64,000 nt of DNA, taken from positions 1 to 64,000 of the forward strand of contig NZ_BSSE01000023.1 of NCBI RefSeq assembly GCF_030268965.1. The letters run 5' to 3'. The notes beneath the pieces are model-generated. The model had not been told where the DNA came from and did not search any database. It worked only from the letters and a program-made list of their open reading frames with translations. The DNA comes from Microtetraspora sp. NBRC 16547 (GTDB taxonomy: Bacteria > Actinomycetota > Actinomycetes > Streptosporangiales > Streptosporangiaceae). A program made the translations under genes and the position numbers. Of this stretch, positions 178 through 61,967 are shown one piece after another (the stretch's first letter is position 1; each line of letters opens with the position of its first letter).

Positions 178-1392
178 CCAGGCGGTTGTCTGGTCGTAGT
201 GGGTGCGGGTCTTGAGGCAGCCGTGGAGGATGCCGACGAGGCGGTTGCCGACCTGGCGGAGGGCTGCGTTGTGCCCGACATCGCGGGCGCGGAGCTGGTC
301 GTAGTAGGCGCGGACCTCGGAGTCGTGCAGGATGGCGCAGGAAGCCTGGAGATGGAGCGCGTCCACGAGGCGGTCGTTGTGGACAAAGCGGGCATGAACG
401 GTGCGCATCTTCCCGGATTGGCGGGTGATCGGGCTGGTTCCCGCGTAGTTCTTACGGGCCTTGGCAGAGGTGTAGCGTCCGGGAGCATCTCCGAACTCGG
501 CAAGCACCCGGGCGCCGAGAACGACACCGATACCGGGCTGGCTGAGGATGATCTCAGCATCCGGGTGCCGGCCAAAATGCGCCTCGACCTCGCTCTCGAG
601 GGTGCTGATCTCGGCGTTCAGAGTGGTGATGACCGCAACCAGGGCGCGGACAGTGGAGGCGTAGGCGGCGGTGACCAGGCCAGACTGGCCCAGATGCTCA
701 CCGCGCAATGACTGCTGGATCGCGGCGGCTTTGCCCGCGATGTCCCGGCGGCCCTTGAGTGCCGCGCTGATCTGGCTGATCGTCAGCTTCGCCGCCGCGG
801 CCGAGGTAGGTGCCTTGGCCAGCAGCTTCAGCACCGGCTCGGAGGTCAGGCCGAGGGGCTTATAGGCGTCCAGCGCGGCGGGGAAGTAGTCGCGCAATGC
901 GACCCGCAACCGGAGCATGTGCCGGGTGCGTTCCCACAGCAGGGTCTGGTGGGCCCGCGTGACGACCTTGACCGCCTCAGCGACCTCGGAGTCACCGGCG
1001 ACCTCCAGCAGTTGGTGGTGGCGGGTGCGCACCATGTCGGCCAGCGCATGGGCGTCGCCCCTGTCACTTTTGGCGCCGGAGCTGCTCAGAATCTCCCGAT
1101 GCCGGGCGGCCTGCTTGGGGTCCACCCCGAACACCCGGTATCCAGCTGCCCGCAGCGCCCGCACCCACGGGCCCCGGTCGGTCTCGATACACACCAGCAC
1201 GTCAGACGGCTCGGCGTCCTCGGCCACGAACCGGGCCACCAGTTCGTGGAAGCGCGATATCCCGGCTATGCCCTCGGGCAGCCGTACTCGCTTGAGAACC
1301 TTTCCGGCCTCGTCCTGGACCTCCACATCGTGATGTTCCTCAGCCCAGTCATCTCCGACGAACAGCACCGAGCCCCCAAAGATCGACAACAT
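148..1392 (-). CDS. IS110-family transposase (DEDD recombinase)
   Basis: A 414-residue protein of usual IS110 length. The N-terminal RuvC-like DEDD domain shows FVGDDWAEEHHD (first Asp, about residue 14), CIETDRGPW, and SDRGDAHALADMVR (DxxD). A charged helical linker follows. The C-terminal transposase domain carries SQPGIGVVLGARVLAEFGD and NYAGTSPITRQSGK, which holds the family's nucleophilic serine region. I chose the ATG at 1392 because family proteins start just before the first Asp; the open frame extends to 1551 but that part has no family character. IS110 enzymes recombine DNA guided by a bridge RNA encoded in the element's non-coding end. All key acidic residues are present, so it may be active. 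Confidence 0.9.
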   Translation of the reverse strand: MLSIFGGSVLFVGDDWAEEHHDVEVQDEAGKVLKRVRLPEGIAGISRFHELVARFVAEDAEPSDVLVCIETDRGPWVRALRAAGYRVFGVDPKQAARHREILSSSGAKSDRGDAHALADMVRTRHHQLLEVAGDSEVAEAVKVVTRAHQTLLWERTRHMLRLRVALRDYFPAALDAYKPLGLTSEPVLKLLAKAPTSAAAAKLTISQISAALKGRRDIAGKAAAIQQSLRGEHLGQSGLVTAAYASTVRALVAVITTLNAEISTLESEVEAHFGRHPDAEIILSQPGIGVVLGARVLAEFGDAPGRYTSAKARKNYAGTSPITRQSGKMRTVHARFVHNDRLVDALHLQASCAILHDSEVRAYYDQLRARDVGHNAALRQVGNRLVGILHGCLKTRTHYDQTTAWSHRSQALIA

Positions 1393-57371: not shown

Positions 57372-58550
57372 CGCCGTCTGGCCGATCGGGAGCCGAGCGG
57401 TCACGCGGAAGCCGCCACCCGGCCGGGGCGCGGCGCTGACCGTGCCGCCGTACATGGAGACCCGCTCCCGCATGCCGATCAGGCCGTGCCCGTCGTCGGA
57501 CCGTGCCGCGGAGGCGCCCCGGCCGTCGTCGGACACCGTCAGCGTGACGTCGTGGGAGCCGTACTCCATCAGGACGCTGGCGCGGACACCGGGCCCGCCG
57601 TGCTTGAGCGTGTTCGTCAGCGCCTCCTGGATGATCCGGTAGATCACCAGCTGCTCTCCCTCCCGGATGTCCTGCGGGCTCCCCGACACGATGAACTCCA
57701 CCGGAAGGCCCGAGGCGCGGACCTGCTCGACGAGATCGGTGAGCTGGTCCAGGCCCGGCTGCGGAGCGTACTCTCCGGCCGAGTTCCGGTCGTCGCGCAG
57801 CACCCCCACCAGCCGCCGCATCTCCGCCAGCGCCTGCCGCCCGGTCGACGACACCGCCTGTACGGCACGGCGGGCCTGCTCGGGGTCGGTGTCGATGGCG
57901 TACCCGGCGCCGTCCGCCTGGACGACCATCACGCTGACGTTGTGCGCGACCACGTCGTGCAGCTCGCGGGCGATGCGCGTGCGCTCGGCGGCGGCCGCGA
58001 TGCGGGCCTGCTGGTCCGTCTCGCGTTCGGCGCGCTCCGCCCGCTCCAGGAGGCTCTCCACGTACCTCTGCCGCATGTTGACGTAGATGCCGGTGACCCA
58101 GATCGCCACGACGAAGACGGACGACGTGGGCCAGGCCGTCAGCGCCTGGTCACCCTGGCGGACGAAGGCGAGGAACAGACCTAACTCGGTGACCACGAAG
58201 GCCGCGATCGCCCACTTCAGGGGACGGCGCGCGGCCACGGTGTACATCGCCGCGAGGACCGCCATGTCGCTCGGCAGGATGTCGATGTGCGCCAGCCACT
58301 GGACGAAGCACACCAGGGCCACGATCGCGAACACCGCGAGGGGGTACTTGCGCCGCCAGATCAGCGGTGTCAGGAGCAGCGCGGAGAGCAGGAGCGCCCC
58401 AACGGGGCCGATTCCGTACAGCTCGGGCCCCCGCGGGACGCCGGACATGGCTACGGAGGAGAGCAGGCTGAGCAGCACGAGCGGCGTGAGAGCGAGCGTG
58501 TCAACAAGGAGGGAGTGGCGTCGCTTCCAGGCGCGCAGTCTGCCGAACAC
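57369..58550 (-). CDS. HisKA_3 sensor histidine kinase
   Basis: 393 residues from GTG 58550 (start uncertain; the frame is open to 58628). About five or six N-terminal helices without an outside sensor loop. H-box ARELHDVVAHNVSVMVVQADG, N-box IIQEALTNTLKHGG, G-box SDDGRGASAARSDDGHGLIGMRERV. Intramembrane-sensing, LiaS/DesK-like kinase. A GGGGAGG/CCCCCTCC hairpin upstream may cover an alternative start. Confidence 0.88.
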   Translation of the reverse strand: MFGRLRAWKRRHSLLVDTLALTPLVLLSLLSSVAMSGVPRGPELYGIGPVGALLLSALLLTPLIWRRKYPLAVFAIVALVCFVQWLAHIDILPSDMAVLAAMYTVAARRPLKWAIAAFVVTELGLFLAFVRQGDQALTAWPTSSVFVVAIWVTGIYVNMRQRYVESLLERAERAERETDQQARIAAAAERTRIARELHDVVAHNVSVMVVQADGAGYAIDTDPEQARRAVQAVSSTGRQALAEMRRLVGVLRDDRNSAGEYAPQPGLDQLTDLVEQVRASGLPVEFIVSGSPQDIREGEQLVIYRIIQEALTNTLKHGGPGVRASVLMEYGSHDVTLTVSDDGRGASAARSDDGHGLIGMRERVSMYGGTVSAAPRPGGGFRVTARLPIGQTA

Positions 58551-58706
58551 GACACCAACGATAAGTAATCCCCAGGTGGGGAGGTTCCCCCCTCCGGTGG
58601 ATCCCTGTCTACGACCCGGGTCGCACAACCGCTTACACCACTCTTACGGATCGTGCGGCATGCTCTTCTTCGGAGCCCTTGGGGGGGCGAGTAAAGGGAG
58701 ATCTGT

Positions 58707-59528
58707 GTGATGGCGGATCGCGACGCCGGGTCGCGCGGTGCAGAGGACGAGCCGCGCGGCCCAGAGGACACGGCACCCGAGGGTCGTCAGGAGCCCGAAC
58801 CCAAGCCCGTCGAGACCGACGCGCAGGCAGAGGGCGCCAAGGCGGAGTCAGGTGACGAGCCCGTGACGGCCGAGCCAGTGGCCGGAGGAGAGGCCGGAGC
58901 CGGCACGCCCGCCGCGAGCGGAGCAGACGCGGAGCGGCCGACGACGGTCAACCCGGTGCCCACGCCCCCGACCAGGCCGTTCGCATCGCCCGACGGATCG
59001 CCCGGGCCGCGTCCGGGAAACTTCGGACCCACCCCGCCGGCCTATGGTTTCGGGGCGCCGACCTTCGGCCCCGCGTCGGGAAGCGTCGGCCCCACCGTAT
59101 CCGCGGCCTTCGGGTCCGCGCCGGGATCCGGCAATTACGCGTACGGCCCCGGCGGTCCCGGCTGGACCGCTCCGGGCTGGAGGACCGCGCCCGGTGTCGG
59201 CGTTCCAGGCCACGGGAGCCGGCTGCCTTCGCACGCCGCCAGGTTCGGCGCGTTCGCGCGCGGACGGGGCGGCCAGCTGATCGTCGCCGGGTTGATCGGC
59301 GCGATCATCGGAGGTGGCGCCGTCGCCGTGGGCACCGCGATCTGGGACCGCGGCCAGGTGTACGACGCGACCCTGGAGAGGGGCTACGGAGACGGCCGGA
59401 ACCCGCTGGACCGCTCCTTCGGCCAGAGGCAGGGCCCGAGCGAGCTGCAGGACCAGCTGTCGCGGTACTGCAAGCGGACCGAAACCGGCTTCCGTTGCGA
59501 GCTTCCCCGCTCGGGCGGCTCCTGGTAA
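58707..59528 (+). CDS. single-pass membrane protein with disordered N-terminus
   Basis: 273 residues. The first ~180 residues are acidic, then Pro/Gly-rich and probably disordered; one helix (LIVAGLIGAIIGGGAVAVGTAI, about 191-212) and a ~60-residue tail with two cysteines (YCKRTETGFRCELP). Start GTG 58707 or ATG 58710, with GGGAGA upstream. Unknown function. Confidence 0.7.
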   Translation: MMADRDAGSRGAEDEPRGPEDTAPEGRQEPEPKPVETDAQAEGAKAESGDEPVTAEPVAGGEAGAGTPAASGADAERPTTVNPVPTPPTRPFASPDGSPGPRPGNFGPTPPAYGFGAPTFGPASGSVGPTVSAAFGSAPGSGNYAYGPGGPGWTAPGWRTAPGVGVPGHGSRLPSHAARFGAFARGRGGQLIVAGLIGAIIGGGAVAVGTAIWDRGQVYDATLERGYGDGRNPLDRSFGQRQGPSELQDQLSRYCKRTETGFRCELPRSGGSW

Positions 59529-59582
59529 CTCGATCACGCCGTGGGAGGCTGTCCGATCCCTCTCAGCGCCGAAAATCACAAA

Positions 59583-59612
59583 AGCCGCCTCTCATCGAAA
59601 AGAGGCGGTTTT
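59583..59612. terminator. bidirectional terminator between membrane protein gene and tRNA
   Basis: Stem GCCGCCTCT/AGAGGCGGT (one G-U pair) with an 8-base loop, T-run TTTT on the plus strand and a T-run on the minus strand. Ends transcripts of both the upstream gene and the minus-strand tRNA. Confidence 0.85.
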
Positions 59613-59622
59613 CGCCGGTGAT

Positions 59623-59940
59623 TCAGATGTGGGGCCGGTGGGATTCGAACCCACGCTGTACGGCACCTAAAGCCGCTGTCTCTGCCGTTGGACTACGGCC
59701 CCTTCGTTTTCCTTTGCCTGCGAAATTATCTGTCTGTGAATGACAGTTCGGGCAGAGGAAACGCAAATTCTCTTTTCTGTTATCGAGCTGGACCCGATTA
59801 ATGGCCGGCATCAACGGCCGACCGGGCCAGGCGCCGCCTATCTTACAGCGCGAACGCTGGTAAGGGACTCCCGCTTCGTGAAGCGTCCTTCGCGGGATCA
59901 CCGAGATCGGACGATGGCCGCGATGCCGAAACCGAGCCAC
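59623..59940 (-). pseudogene. decayed HNH endonuclease reading through into the tRNA
   Basis: A 105-residue frame. Residues 19-82 resemble the tail of a short HNH endonuclease (LHEAGVPYQRSRCKIGGAWPGRPL, LDNRKENLRFLCPNCHSQTDNFAGKGKRRG). The second zinc pair CPNC and following H survive, but the first Cys pair is now RSRC, and the catalytic DH of the usual DHVNG is replaced (AINRVQ). The last residues RGFESHRPHI are the translated T-arm and acceptor of the tRNA. The N-terminal domain is missing. Its GC content is visibly lower than neighbours, suggesting transfer. Confidence 0.7.
59630..59702 (-). tRNA. tRNA with anticodon UAG, class I shape (nominal Leu)
   Basis: 73 nt on the minus strand. 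Acceptor stem GGGGCCG/CGGCCCC (7 bp), D-stem GTC/GAC with G18G19, anticodon stem GCGGC/GCCGT with loop TTTAGGT, variable loop of only 5 (ACAGC), T-stem GTGGG/CCCAC with TTCGAAT. Discriminator A73; CCA is not encoded. Anticodon UAG reads CUA (and possibly CUG) leucine codons, but bacterial tRNA-Leu has a long variable arm, which this lacks. It sits at the end of the HNH relic. A GATAAT hexamer 23 bases upstream could be its -10 box. Confidence 0.8.
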
Positions 59941-59957
59941 GGGAACGCGCAGGCGGG

Positions 59958-60008
59958 GAGGCCGTCGTTCTTGGCGGTGTGGGAAAACCGGAAAAGAACG
60001 ACGGCCTC
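59958..60008 (-). terminator. hairpin terminator of the branched-chain importer operon
   Basis: GAGGCCGTCGTTCTT and its exact complement AAGAACGACGGCCTC with a 21-base loop, starting 2 bases after the LivM stop codon. Confidence 0.75.
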
Positions 60009-60009
60009 G

Positions 60010-61104
60010 TCACTTGGATGAGCCGCGCAGGCGGGTGGTCAGGCTGGCCAGCCCGCCGGGCAGGAAGTACACCATCACGATGAAGAGCACGCCGAGCACG
60101 AACAGCGGCTCGGACAGCGGGGCGCGCAGCACCTCGGGCAGACCCGCCACGGCGTCGGACGTGCCGAGCGCGGCGAGCCGGTGGTCGAGATAGGTGTACA
60201 GCACGCCGCCGAGCATCGCGCCCCACCGGCTTCCCGTACCGCCGAGCACCACCATGACCAGGAAGGCGAGGGTGAAGTTCGACGTGGTGATCTGCGGGCT
60301 CGACCCGCCGACCAGGAACAGGTGGACCACCCCGCCGAGCGTCGCCAGGAAGGACGCGATGACGAAGGCCAGCAGCCGGAAGCGGTACGACGGGAGGCCG
60401 AGCACCGACACCCGGCGTTCGTTCTCGCGGATCGCCTGCCAGACGCGGCCGGGTTCCGACTCGACCACCCACGCGATCACGGCCAGCACGACGACCAGGT
60501 AGCCGAGGGCGAGCCAGTACAGGTTCGCCGTGTTGGCCACACCGGAGAGGAAGCCGGGGATCGCGCCCGGCGCGAGCGGCAGCCCCTCCTCGCCGCCGGT
60601 GAGCCGGCCCGGGTCGCTCATCACCACGATGGAGCCGACCTGGGCGGTGGCGAGGGTCACCATGGCGAAGGCGATGCCGTTCACCCGCAGCGCCACGGCG
60701 CCGAGCAGCGCGGGCACGATCAGGCCCACGAGTACGGCGAGCAGCAGGGCGGCCGGGAGCGCGAGATCAAGCTTCGTCACGGCGATGTTGACGGTGTAGC
60801 TGCCCAGCGCCACGTAGAGCGCGTGCCCGAAGGACAGCAGCCCCGTACGGCCGAAGAGCAGGTCGTAGGTGGCCGCGAGCCCGGCGAAGACCAGGCAGAT
60901 CGCGAGCAACTGCAGCGATCCGGGGCTGTTGACCGGGCCGGGCAGCAGCGCGGGCAGGTCCACCGTCGAGAACGGCAGGACGGCCAGTACGGCGACGGCG
61001 GCGAGCGGCACGCCCCGGCGCAGCCACCGGCTGCGGGGCGACGCCGGACGCGGCCGGATGTCGTCCACGGTCACGGTTTCGGGGACGTCTGCTGTCGTGG
61101 TCAC
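60010..61104 (-). CDS. branched-chain amino-acid ABC transporter permease LivM-like
   Basis: 364 residues from GTG 61104, overlapping the LivH stop (GTGA). About 10 helices, with FGRTGLLSFGHALYVALGSY, GIAFAMVTLATAQ and VLGGTGSRWGAMLGGVLYTYLDHRL, all typical of LivM. Last gene of the importer operon. Confidence 0.93.
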   Translation of the reverse strand: MTTTADVPETVTVDDIRPRPASPRSRWLRRGVPLAAVAVLAVLPFSTVDLPALLPGPVNSPGSLQLLAICLVFAGLAATYDLLFGRTGLLSFGHALYVALGSYTVNIAVTKLDLALPAALLLAVLVGLIVPALLGAVALRVNGIAFAMVTLATAQVGSIVVMSDPGRLTGGEEGLPLAPGAIPGFLSGVANTANLYWLALGYLVVVLAVIAWVVESEPGRVWQAIRENERRVSVLGLPSYRFRLLAFVIASFLATLGGVVHLFLVGGSSPQITTSNFTLAFLVMVVLGGTGSRWGAMLGGVLYTYLDHRLAALGTSDAVAGLPEVLRAPLSEPLFVLGVLFIVMVYFLPGGLASLTTRLRGSSK

Positions 61105-61967
61105 GCGGCCCTCCCTGCCAGACCGCCCGGCCGGGCCAGCAGGACCACGGCGAGCAGGAGCACGACCGAGGCCTCCCCGACGCCGGCGGCGGCGTAGAAG
61201 CTGGTGAACTGCTGGACGAGGCCGACCAGCACGGCGGCGACCGCCGAGCCGGTCACCGAGCCCATGCCGCCGATGACGACGACGATGAAGGCGAAGATGA
61301 GCAGGGAGGTGCCCTGCCCGGGGGACACGTTGCCGAAGTAGACCCCGGCCAACGCTCCGGCGAGCGCCGCCGCCGCGCCGCCGATGGCGAACACCAGCGT
61401 GAAGGCGGTGCGTACGTTGATGCCGAGCGCGGTGACCATGGTCCGGTCCTCGACGCCGGCCCGGACGATCAGGCCGAAGCGGGTCCGGCGCAGGAACACC
61501 TGGATGGCGGCCAGCACCACCACGGCCGCGCCGATCAGCAGGAACCGGTCGTTGGGGACGATCGCGCCCAGGATGCGGGTGGTCCCGGTGGCCCACTCCG
61601 GGCGGGGGAACGTCAACGGGTCGGCTCCGAACGCGGCCTGCAGCAACGCCACCCCGGCGAGGCTGAGCCCGACGGTGACCAGCACCTGCTCGATCGTCCG
61701 CCGGTAGAGCGGCCGGATCAGCAGCATCTCGACCAGTACGGCGGTGGCCGTGCCGGCGAGGACGCCGAACACGACGGCGGGGACGAAGCCGAGTCCCAGG
61801 TGGGTGGACGACCACCAGGTGCCGTACGCCCCGACGGCGAGAAACAGGCCGTGGGCGAAATTCAGCACGTCGGCCAGGCCGAAGATCAGCGATAGTCCGG
61901 ACGCGATGAGGAAGTAGAGCGCGCCCAGACCGAGGCCGGTGAGCGCGAGGAGCACGATGTTGCTCAT
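61101..61967 (-). CDS. branched-chain amino-acid ABC transporter permease LivH-like
   Basis: 288 residues from ATG 61967 (GAGGCGGC upstream). GLGLGALYFLIASGLSLIFGLADVLNFAHG and RTRFGLIVRAGVEDRTMVTALGINV, FVVVIGGMGSVTGS-like signature near the end. The second integral membrane subunit. Confidence 0.93.
   Translation of the reverse strand: MSNIVLLALTGLGLGALYFLIASGLSLIFGLADVLNFAHGLFLAVGAYGTWWSSTHLGLGFVPAVVFGVLAGTATAVLVEMLLIRPLYRRTIEQVLVTVGLSLAGVALLQAAFGADPLTFPRPEWATGTTRILGAIVPNDRFLLIGAAVVVLAAIQVFLRRTRFGLIVRAGVEDRTMVTALGINVRTAFTLVFAIGGAAAALAGALAGVYFGNVSPGQGTSLLIFAFIVVVIGGMGSVTGSAVAAVLVGLVQQFTSFYAAAGVGEASVVLLLAVVLLARPGGLAGRAA

Follow-up and report, generated by a model that had tools for sequence, protein, structure and literature searches.

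The locus raises the question of why, in Microtetraspora sp. NBRC 16547, a tRNA gene with the anticodon UAG and the compact shape of class I lies at the end of a decayed gene for an HNH endonuclease, and whether the two belong together. We analyzed the window, that is, the whole 64,000-nt stretch at the start of contig NZ_BSSE01000023.1 (positions 1 to 64,000), together with related genomes and phages. A preliminary description of the window had taken the pair for the remains of a mobile HNH–tRNA unit whose tRNA had outlived the nuclease, and had suggested that the tRNA carries an amino acid other than leucine or serves as a decoy.

ARAGORN called one tRNA in the 64,000-nt window, a tRNA-Leu with the anticodon TAG at 59629–59702 on the minus strand, and Rfam model RF00005 matched 59630–59702 at 59.2 bits, well above its gathering score (29). 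The gene (59630–59702, minus strand) specifies a tRNA-Leu(UAG) of class-I shape, 73 nt long, with a short variable loop in place of the long variable arm of class II. Its anticodon loop reads UUUAGGU, the discriminator position is A73, and CCA is not encoded. The sequence is thus a good short-loop tRNA, as had been described. The 60 bases 3′ of the tRNA gave a folding z-score of −4.29 and include a terminator-like hairpin at 59585–59608 (minus strand; nine pairs, six of them G–C). No sigma-70-like promoter was found at 59400–60200.

Upstream of the tRNA on the same strand, alignment with relatives placed the remnant of the HNH gene at 59707–59982, and its open frame of 105 aa (59623–59940, minus strand) crosses the entire tRNA gene and stops just beyond it. 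Residues 51–148 of the HNH query matched the window copy with 55% identity, and the Pfam HNH model scored the window frame at 19.2 bits, under the cut-off of 21.4. When the window copy was aligned with 13 relatives, the first approximately 65 residues were absent, RSRC stood in place of the CxxC motif of the relatives, with the loss of one zinc Cys, and NR followed by a three-residue gap occupied the position of the Asp-His pair; the CPNCH end was retained. The catalytic Asp-His and two Cys pairs were kept in the 13 relatives. The GC content was 53.5–56% in 200-base windows from 59600 to 59899 and mostly 65–77% around them (61.5–65.5% immediately beside and 70–77% farther out on both sides), with a second low-GC stretch of 62–66.5% at 58500–58799. 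These data agreed with the preliminary description on three points: the HNH frame runs into the tRNA, the catalytic His and a Cys have been lost, and the region is richer in AT than its neighbors.

The family of the nuclease was better seen in intact relatives. Three of these matched phrog_10822 (E 2e-49 to 2e-63), the library label of which is just HNH endonuclease and of which the window copy would be a decayed member, and Pfam HNH or HNH_3 scored at or near the cut-offs. Profile scans of the intact relatives yielded HNH and zinc-ribbon models only, with no GIY-YIG match, and the AF2 model of an intact relative had a mean pLDDT of 85.3 and a pTM of 0.56.

On the other side of the tRNA lies a convergent ORF (58707–59528, plus strand), which corresponds to homologous DNA past the tRNA in relatives and gave no hit to Pfam at E values up to 1. 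The ORF upstream of the HNH remnant (60010–61815, minus strand; its bounds are mechanical, the start being that of the ORF list) presumably encodes a branched-chain amino acid ABC permease, and its end, with 91–93% nucleotide identity to four near relatives, marks the locus. On both sides or only on the upstream side, the flanks of the locus matched three loci of the same genus and Microtetraspora fusca; the downstream flank also matched Microbispora, Streptosporangium, and HNH-less g22 loci. In three other loci (L033, about 1576–1775; L070; L042), a small ORF after the tRNA, which we take to encode a ribbon-helix-helix protein, is in frame with the HNH gene when read through the tRNA. Elsewhere in the window, Rfam matched the Actinobacteria sRNA Ms_AS-4 at 460–541 (plus strand; 55.1 bits).

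We then compared the locus with genomes of the same order and class. The window tRNA had a BLAST match (E 0.001) in 253 of 297 genomes of the order, of which some may be other tRNAs, the 30 best having been checked and all being class-I UAG; it is therefore not a lone relic. At the 30 best loci, the HNH gene was full-length and open in five, broken in four, including the window, and went undetected within 800 nt in 21. The same-genus genome G082 carries a tRNA with a 100% BLAST match adjoined by a full-length open HNH gene, so that the same tRNA beside an intact nuclease, which the preliminary description had proposed to look for, does exist. Homing genes are gained, decay, and are lost in a cycle, and the full, broken, and absent states of the HNH gene resemble these stages.

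The pairing was examined in samples that overlap and in which several loci come from the same species. In the first search, a tRNA-Leu was near the HNH relative at all 20 loci (17 class-I UAG, two class-II UAG, and one UAA), with the tRNA on the other strand at one of the class-II UAG loci, a short match (L081). In the class sample, an HNH relative was present in 32 of 197 genomes, from which 30 loci were fetched, the hits of G299 and G459 and second HNHs being left out. A tRNA-Leu followed downstream on the same strand in 25 of these 30, the window included (22 Leu(UAG) and three Leu(UAA)), and in 24 of the 25 no more than 101 nt separated the end of the HNH match from the tRNA; in the other one (L159), the distance was 416 nt, but the frame stayed open until 5 nt from the tRNA. 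The five further loci (L175–L179), all with weaker HNH matches, had a Thr(UGU) tRNA near, not downstream on the same strand. From 60 tRNAs in 7.8 Mb, we calculated odds of about 4e-4 that a tRNA starts by chance in the 110 nt that follow an HNH match. Of the 69 loci examined, some of which are the same locus entered twice, 11 had the HNH stop codon at tRNA positions 8–10. The pairing of HNH with tRNA-Leu is real. Plasmid carriage was rejected, as one HNH record (36% coverage) and four tRNA records were obtained, one of the latter being a chromosome.

To relate the chromosomal HNHs to those of phages, we used the best 80 of 458 viral loci. Among these 80, a tRNA occurred somewhere in the fetched stretch at 79 and within 150 nt downstream at 39. 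After removal of identical proteins and L284, 71 distinct viral loci of this set remained, of which 58 had an adjacent tRNA, 39 a tRNA-Leu, and 23 a tRNA-Leu(UAG). At these 71 loci, Leu(UAG) accounted for 24 of 77 adjacent tRNAs versus 20 of the 398 other tRNAs (odds ratio 8.6, p 5e-10). HNHs at tRNA-Leu(UAG) inside tRNA arrays were found in Vibrio phage D69, Pseudomonas phage phiPsa347, and Citrobacter phage Maleficent; three other high-ranking phage HNHs adjoined Gly or Arg tRNAs, and that of phage Cursive had no tRNA downstream. The window tRNA itself matched 50 phage records, and the Leu tRNA was short-looped in the five examined.

In a tree of 42 distinct HNHs (at least 100 residues, score at least 60, and a same-strand downstream tRNA), the 38 HNHs beside Leu(UAG) formed one group (97/92), set against four outsiders only. 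Within these 38, the class of the tRNA changed at least seven times, five of the changes being forced by starred branches. In a larger tree of 112 rows (the 42 plus 70 viral rows from the best 80 of 458), in which few forks were resolved, the label Leu(UAG) needed 25 changes, whereas shuffled labels needed a mean of 37.2 and none of 500 shufflings was as low; partner choice is therefore clustered, not fixed. A single Leu(UAG) clade embracing all HNHs was rejected on the same count. The actinobacterial Leu(UAG) HNHs, except L168, formed a single group (36 rows, two of them viral; SH-aLRT 91). The chromosomal HNH branch thus looks tied to Leu(UAG), and its phage kin appear to favour Leu(UAG) without being bound to it.

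The tRNA has been replaced at a fixed locus. In genus g79, ten loci with common upstream and downstream DNA carried six types of UAG tRNA. Type and control identities were computed both ways with respect to gaps: with gaps counted, the UAG tRNAs of different types were 52.8–74.7% identical (mean 61.9%, 39 pairs), versus a mean of 94.3% and a minimum of 83.3% (45 pairs) for the tRNA-Leu(CAG) of these genomes, taken as a control; with gap columns left out, the means were 75.3% and 94.7%. The downstream DNA of g79 was 83–90% identical (36 pairs from nine loci), and between types homology was regained some 25 to 65 bases past the tRNA; by eye, this point lay near the end of a convergent gene, and each tRNA type had its own hairpin. 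In the genus of the window, the CAG tRNA was identical in all four genomes. The UAG tRNA of one of its members (G198), which equals that of M. fusca (L075), was 78% identical to the window tRNA at the same locus, with flanks 75–92% identical.

Replacement extended to the structural class of the tRNA. Alleles of class I without an HNH and alleles of class II with one had the upstream gene in common in genus g120 and, within family f28, at six of the eight class-I loci; the other two class-I loci of f28 had no upstream DNA in common with the HNH-bearing locus. Among 394 genomes, UAG patterns identified class I in 45, class II in 241, both in none, and neither in 108, the last because the patterns are strict (G007, for example, carries a class-I tRNA in which one loop base differs; L155/L214). 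Genus g99 showed the same partition among its 19 genomes, with seven class I, 12 class II, and none with both. As judged from these patterns, class-I and class-II UAG tRNAs are mutually exclusive. The nuclease did not follow the tRNA strictly in locus pairs, for which gap columns of the tRNAs were counted in one comparison and omitted in another: L162 and L164 had tRNAs 97% and HNHs 47% identical, and L161 and L164 had tRNAs 57% and HNHs 63% identical. On these comparisons, the coupling of HNH and tRNA is loose.

In our view, the window probably holds what is left of a free-standing homing unit of HNH type that resides in Actinomycetes at the tRNA-Leu(UAG) locus, the nuclease having decayed and the tRNA having been kept. 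The tRNA-Leu(UAG) gene would be the resident site of a homing endonuclease lying directly 5′ on the same strand. We infer that the endonuclease cuts tRNA-Leu(UAG) alleles without the unit, or their border, and that the break is repaired by copying the HNH gene together with its uncut neighboring tRNA allele, or at times the tRNA alone. The resident could in this way be replaced by unrelated tRNAs, including the short-variable-loop kinds seen in phages, because any UAG tRNA accepted by LeuRS would suffice for a very rare codon. In the window, the nuclease would have degenerated and the tRNA stayed as the only CUA reader found. The position of the HNH gene and the allele replacement fit a free-standing homing endonuclease whose target and co-inheritance with a resistant allele are putative and whose coupling to the tRNA is loose. 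With regard to the preliminary description, the remains of an HNH–tRNA unit with a tRNA outliving its nuclease are upheld by G082 and by the intact, broken, and absent HNH genes of relatives; mobility would follow only indirectly, from allele replacement at one locus.

The swap might instead have been driven by selection for tRNA-Leu(UAG) alleles resistant to tRNA-cutting toxins or phage defences, with the HNH as a passenger that settles beside tRNAs. Such selection could explain tRNA alleles that differ while their HNHs stay similar (L161/L164) as well as HNH-less class-I and HNH-bearing class-II alleles with the same upstream gene (L122 with L159; L157 with L125 and five others), and one paper describes a phage homing endonuclease that amplifies a tRNA to counter a defence that cuts tRNAs (PMC13096335). 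It leaves unexplained, however, the fixed 5′ same-strand position of the HNH and its overlap with the tRNA, as well as the Leu(UAG) bias in phage arrays, and we regard it as unlikely.

The shape of the tRNA also has to be viewed against the other Leu tRNAs. Among the 60 tRNA places of the Microtetraspora genome, the Leu tRNAs with anticodons CAG and GAG were class II, and those with UAA, CAA, and UAG had the class-I shape and resembled one another in the D-arm. In 42 of 197 Actinomycetes genomes, a class-I Leu(UAA) pattern was found (75–76 nt at eight checked loci), and a short loop in Leu tRNAs seems to be a more widespread trait. The short loop therefore does not single out the window tRNA, and its treatment as an oddity was not sustained for tRNA-Leu of this clade. 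No HNH adjoined the class-I Leu(UAA) tRNAs at any of the eight loci checked, and no convincing HNH match lay within about 1.5 kb of the UAA and CAA tRNAs of the same genome. Some short-looped Leu tRNAs also occurred among 33 ARAGORN calls within 5 kb on a plasmid of Nonomuraea sp. NBC_00507 (L193). Other unusual tRNAs of the Microtetraspora genome were a tandem of Ala(GGC) and Glu(CTC) at C39:48573–48730 (L095), unlike the others of these types in the genome, and a weak match of 39 bits at C1:26686–26764 (L105), called Cys(GCA) by ARAGORN and very unlike other Cys tRNAs.

The wide occurrence of the class-I Leu(UAA) pattern, and of matches to the window tRNA in most genomes of the order, would suit vertical inheritance of an old actinobacterial Leu tRNA with the HNH as a chance neighbor. 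We consider this improbable, given that UAG alleles at a fixed locus are far more divergent than their flanks and the control tRNA in g79 and in the genus of the window, both of which speak against the UAG tRNA tree following that of the species, and that HNH adjacency is far above chance.

Next, we focused on the amino acid carried. No second UAG tRNA was found among the 60 tRNA places of the draft genome, although its 151 contigs may have let a tRNA escape notice, and one protein exceeded the LeuRS cut-off. A second LeuRS serving class-I tRNAs was rejected, the weaker hits including two valyl- and one methionyl-tRNA synthetase by NCBIfam; another weaker hit of 1086 aa is presumably an isoleucyl-tRNA synthetase. 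One of the two valyl-tRNA synthetases (L114, C2; L115, C55) matches alt_ValS, an NCBIfam exception model, with 1452.7 bits. The class-I group was sampled by 353 selected ORFs at 143 loci, in which CTA made up 92 of 94,541 codons. At the 36 CTA sites with aligned relatives, the majority residue was Leu at 17, Ile at 16, and Thr, Ser, and Asp at one each; the 16 Ile sites and the Ser site fell in two recurring columns near ORF starts, and the Thr and Asp sites in doubtful ORFs. The window tRNA most likely carries leucine, because Leu is the main residue aligned with CTA codons in its clade, and a changed genetic code was rejected for the same reason. Charging with another amino acid or a decoy role, for which the shape atypical for Leu and the rarity of CTA might speak, is very improbable in view of the mainly Leu-aligned CTA sites, the one LeuRS above the cut-off, the sole UAG tRNA found, and the three Leu anticodons with the same shape.

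These data bear on how tRNA sets evolve, since they are usually viewed as slowly evolving core genes and here a core tRNA has been swapped in place within single genera, with the nuclease as the likely driver. Going further, and with somewhat less confidence than in the decayed homing unit itself, we suggest that a branch of HNH homing endonucleases of phage type may have settled on the tRNA-Leu(UAG) gene of actinobacterial chromosomes and, as a selfish unit, have repeatedly exchanged it for unrelated tRNAs, a serial takeover of the cell's only CUA decoder, structural class included. The locus makes it possible to test how a single LeuRS copes with class-I and class-II tRNA-Leu in one cell, and how parts pass between the tRNA arrays of phages and the tRNA genes of their hosts.

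Among known systems, SegB of phages T4 and T6 is a free-standing homing endonuclease beside tRNA genes, tied to their inheritance or amplification (PMC2988022, PMC13096335), and resembles the present unit in its position beside a tRNA. It is, however, a GIY-YIG enzyme of phage tRNA arrays with no favored isotype, in contrast to an HNH at a single UAG tRNA on a bacterial chromosome. The mob HNH homing endonucleases of T4-like phages are likewise free-standing and adjoin their presumed target genes, which, where listed, are protein genes (PMC2988022), in contrast to the putative tRNA target here. In mycobacteria and their phages, HNHs lie beside tRNAs in arrays for which horizontal transfer was inferred (PMC6582537, PMC5966550, PMC9569102), and a short-variable-loop tRNA-Leu(TAG) was noted in one such array (PMC6582537). 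The likeness extends to both the adjoining HNH and the short-loop Leu(TAG), but these arrays supply many extra tRNAs, whereas here one tRNA at a fixed locus replaces the standard one. In the open PMC literature, no report was found in which HNHs are linked to one chromosomal tRNA; searches on actinobacterial class-I tRNA-Leu and on its pairing with an HNH gave, as relevant reports, only the mycobacterial and phage array papers, and the available portions of PMC9437257, PMC6297222, and PMC11541572 made no mention of such a pairing. Links between HNHs and tRNAs in phages and mycobacterial arrays have thus already been published, and the form found here, a single chromosomal tRNA replaced in place, looks like a new variation on them.
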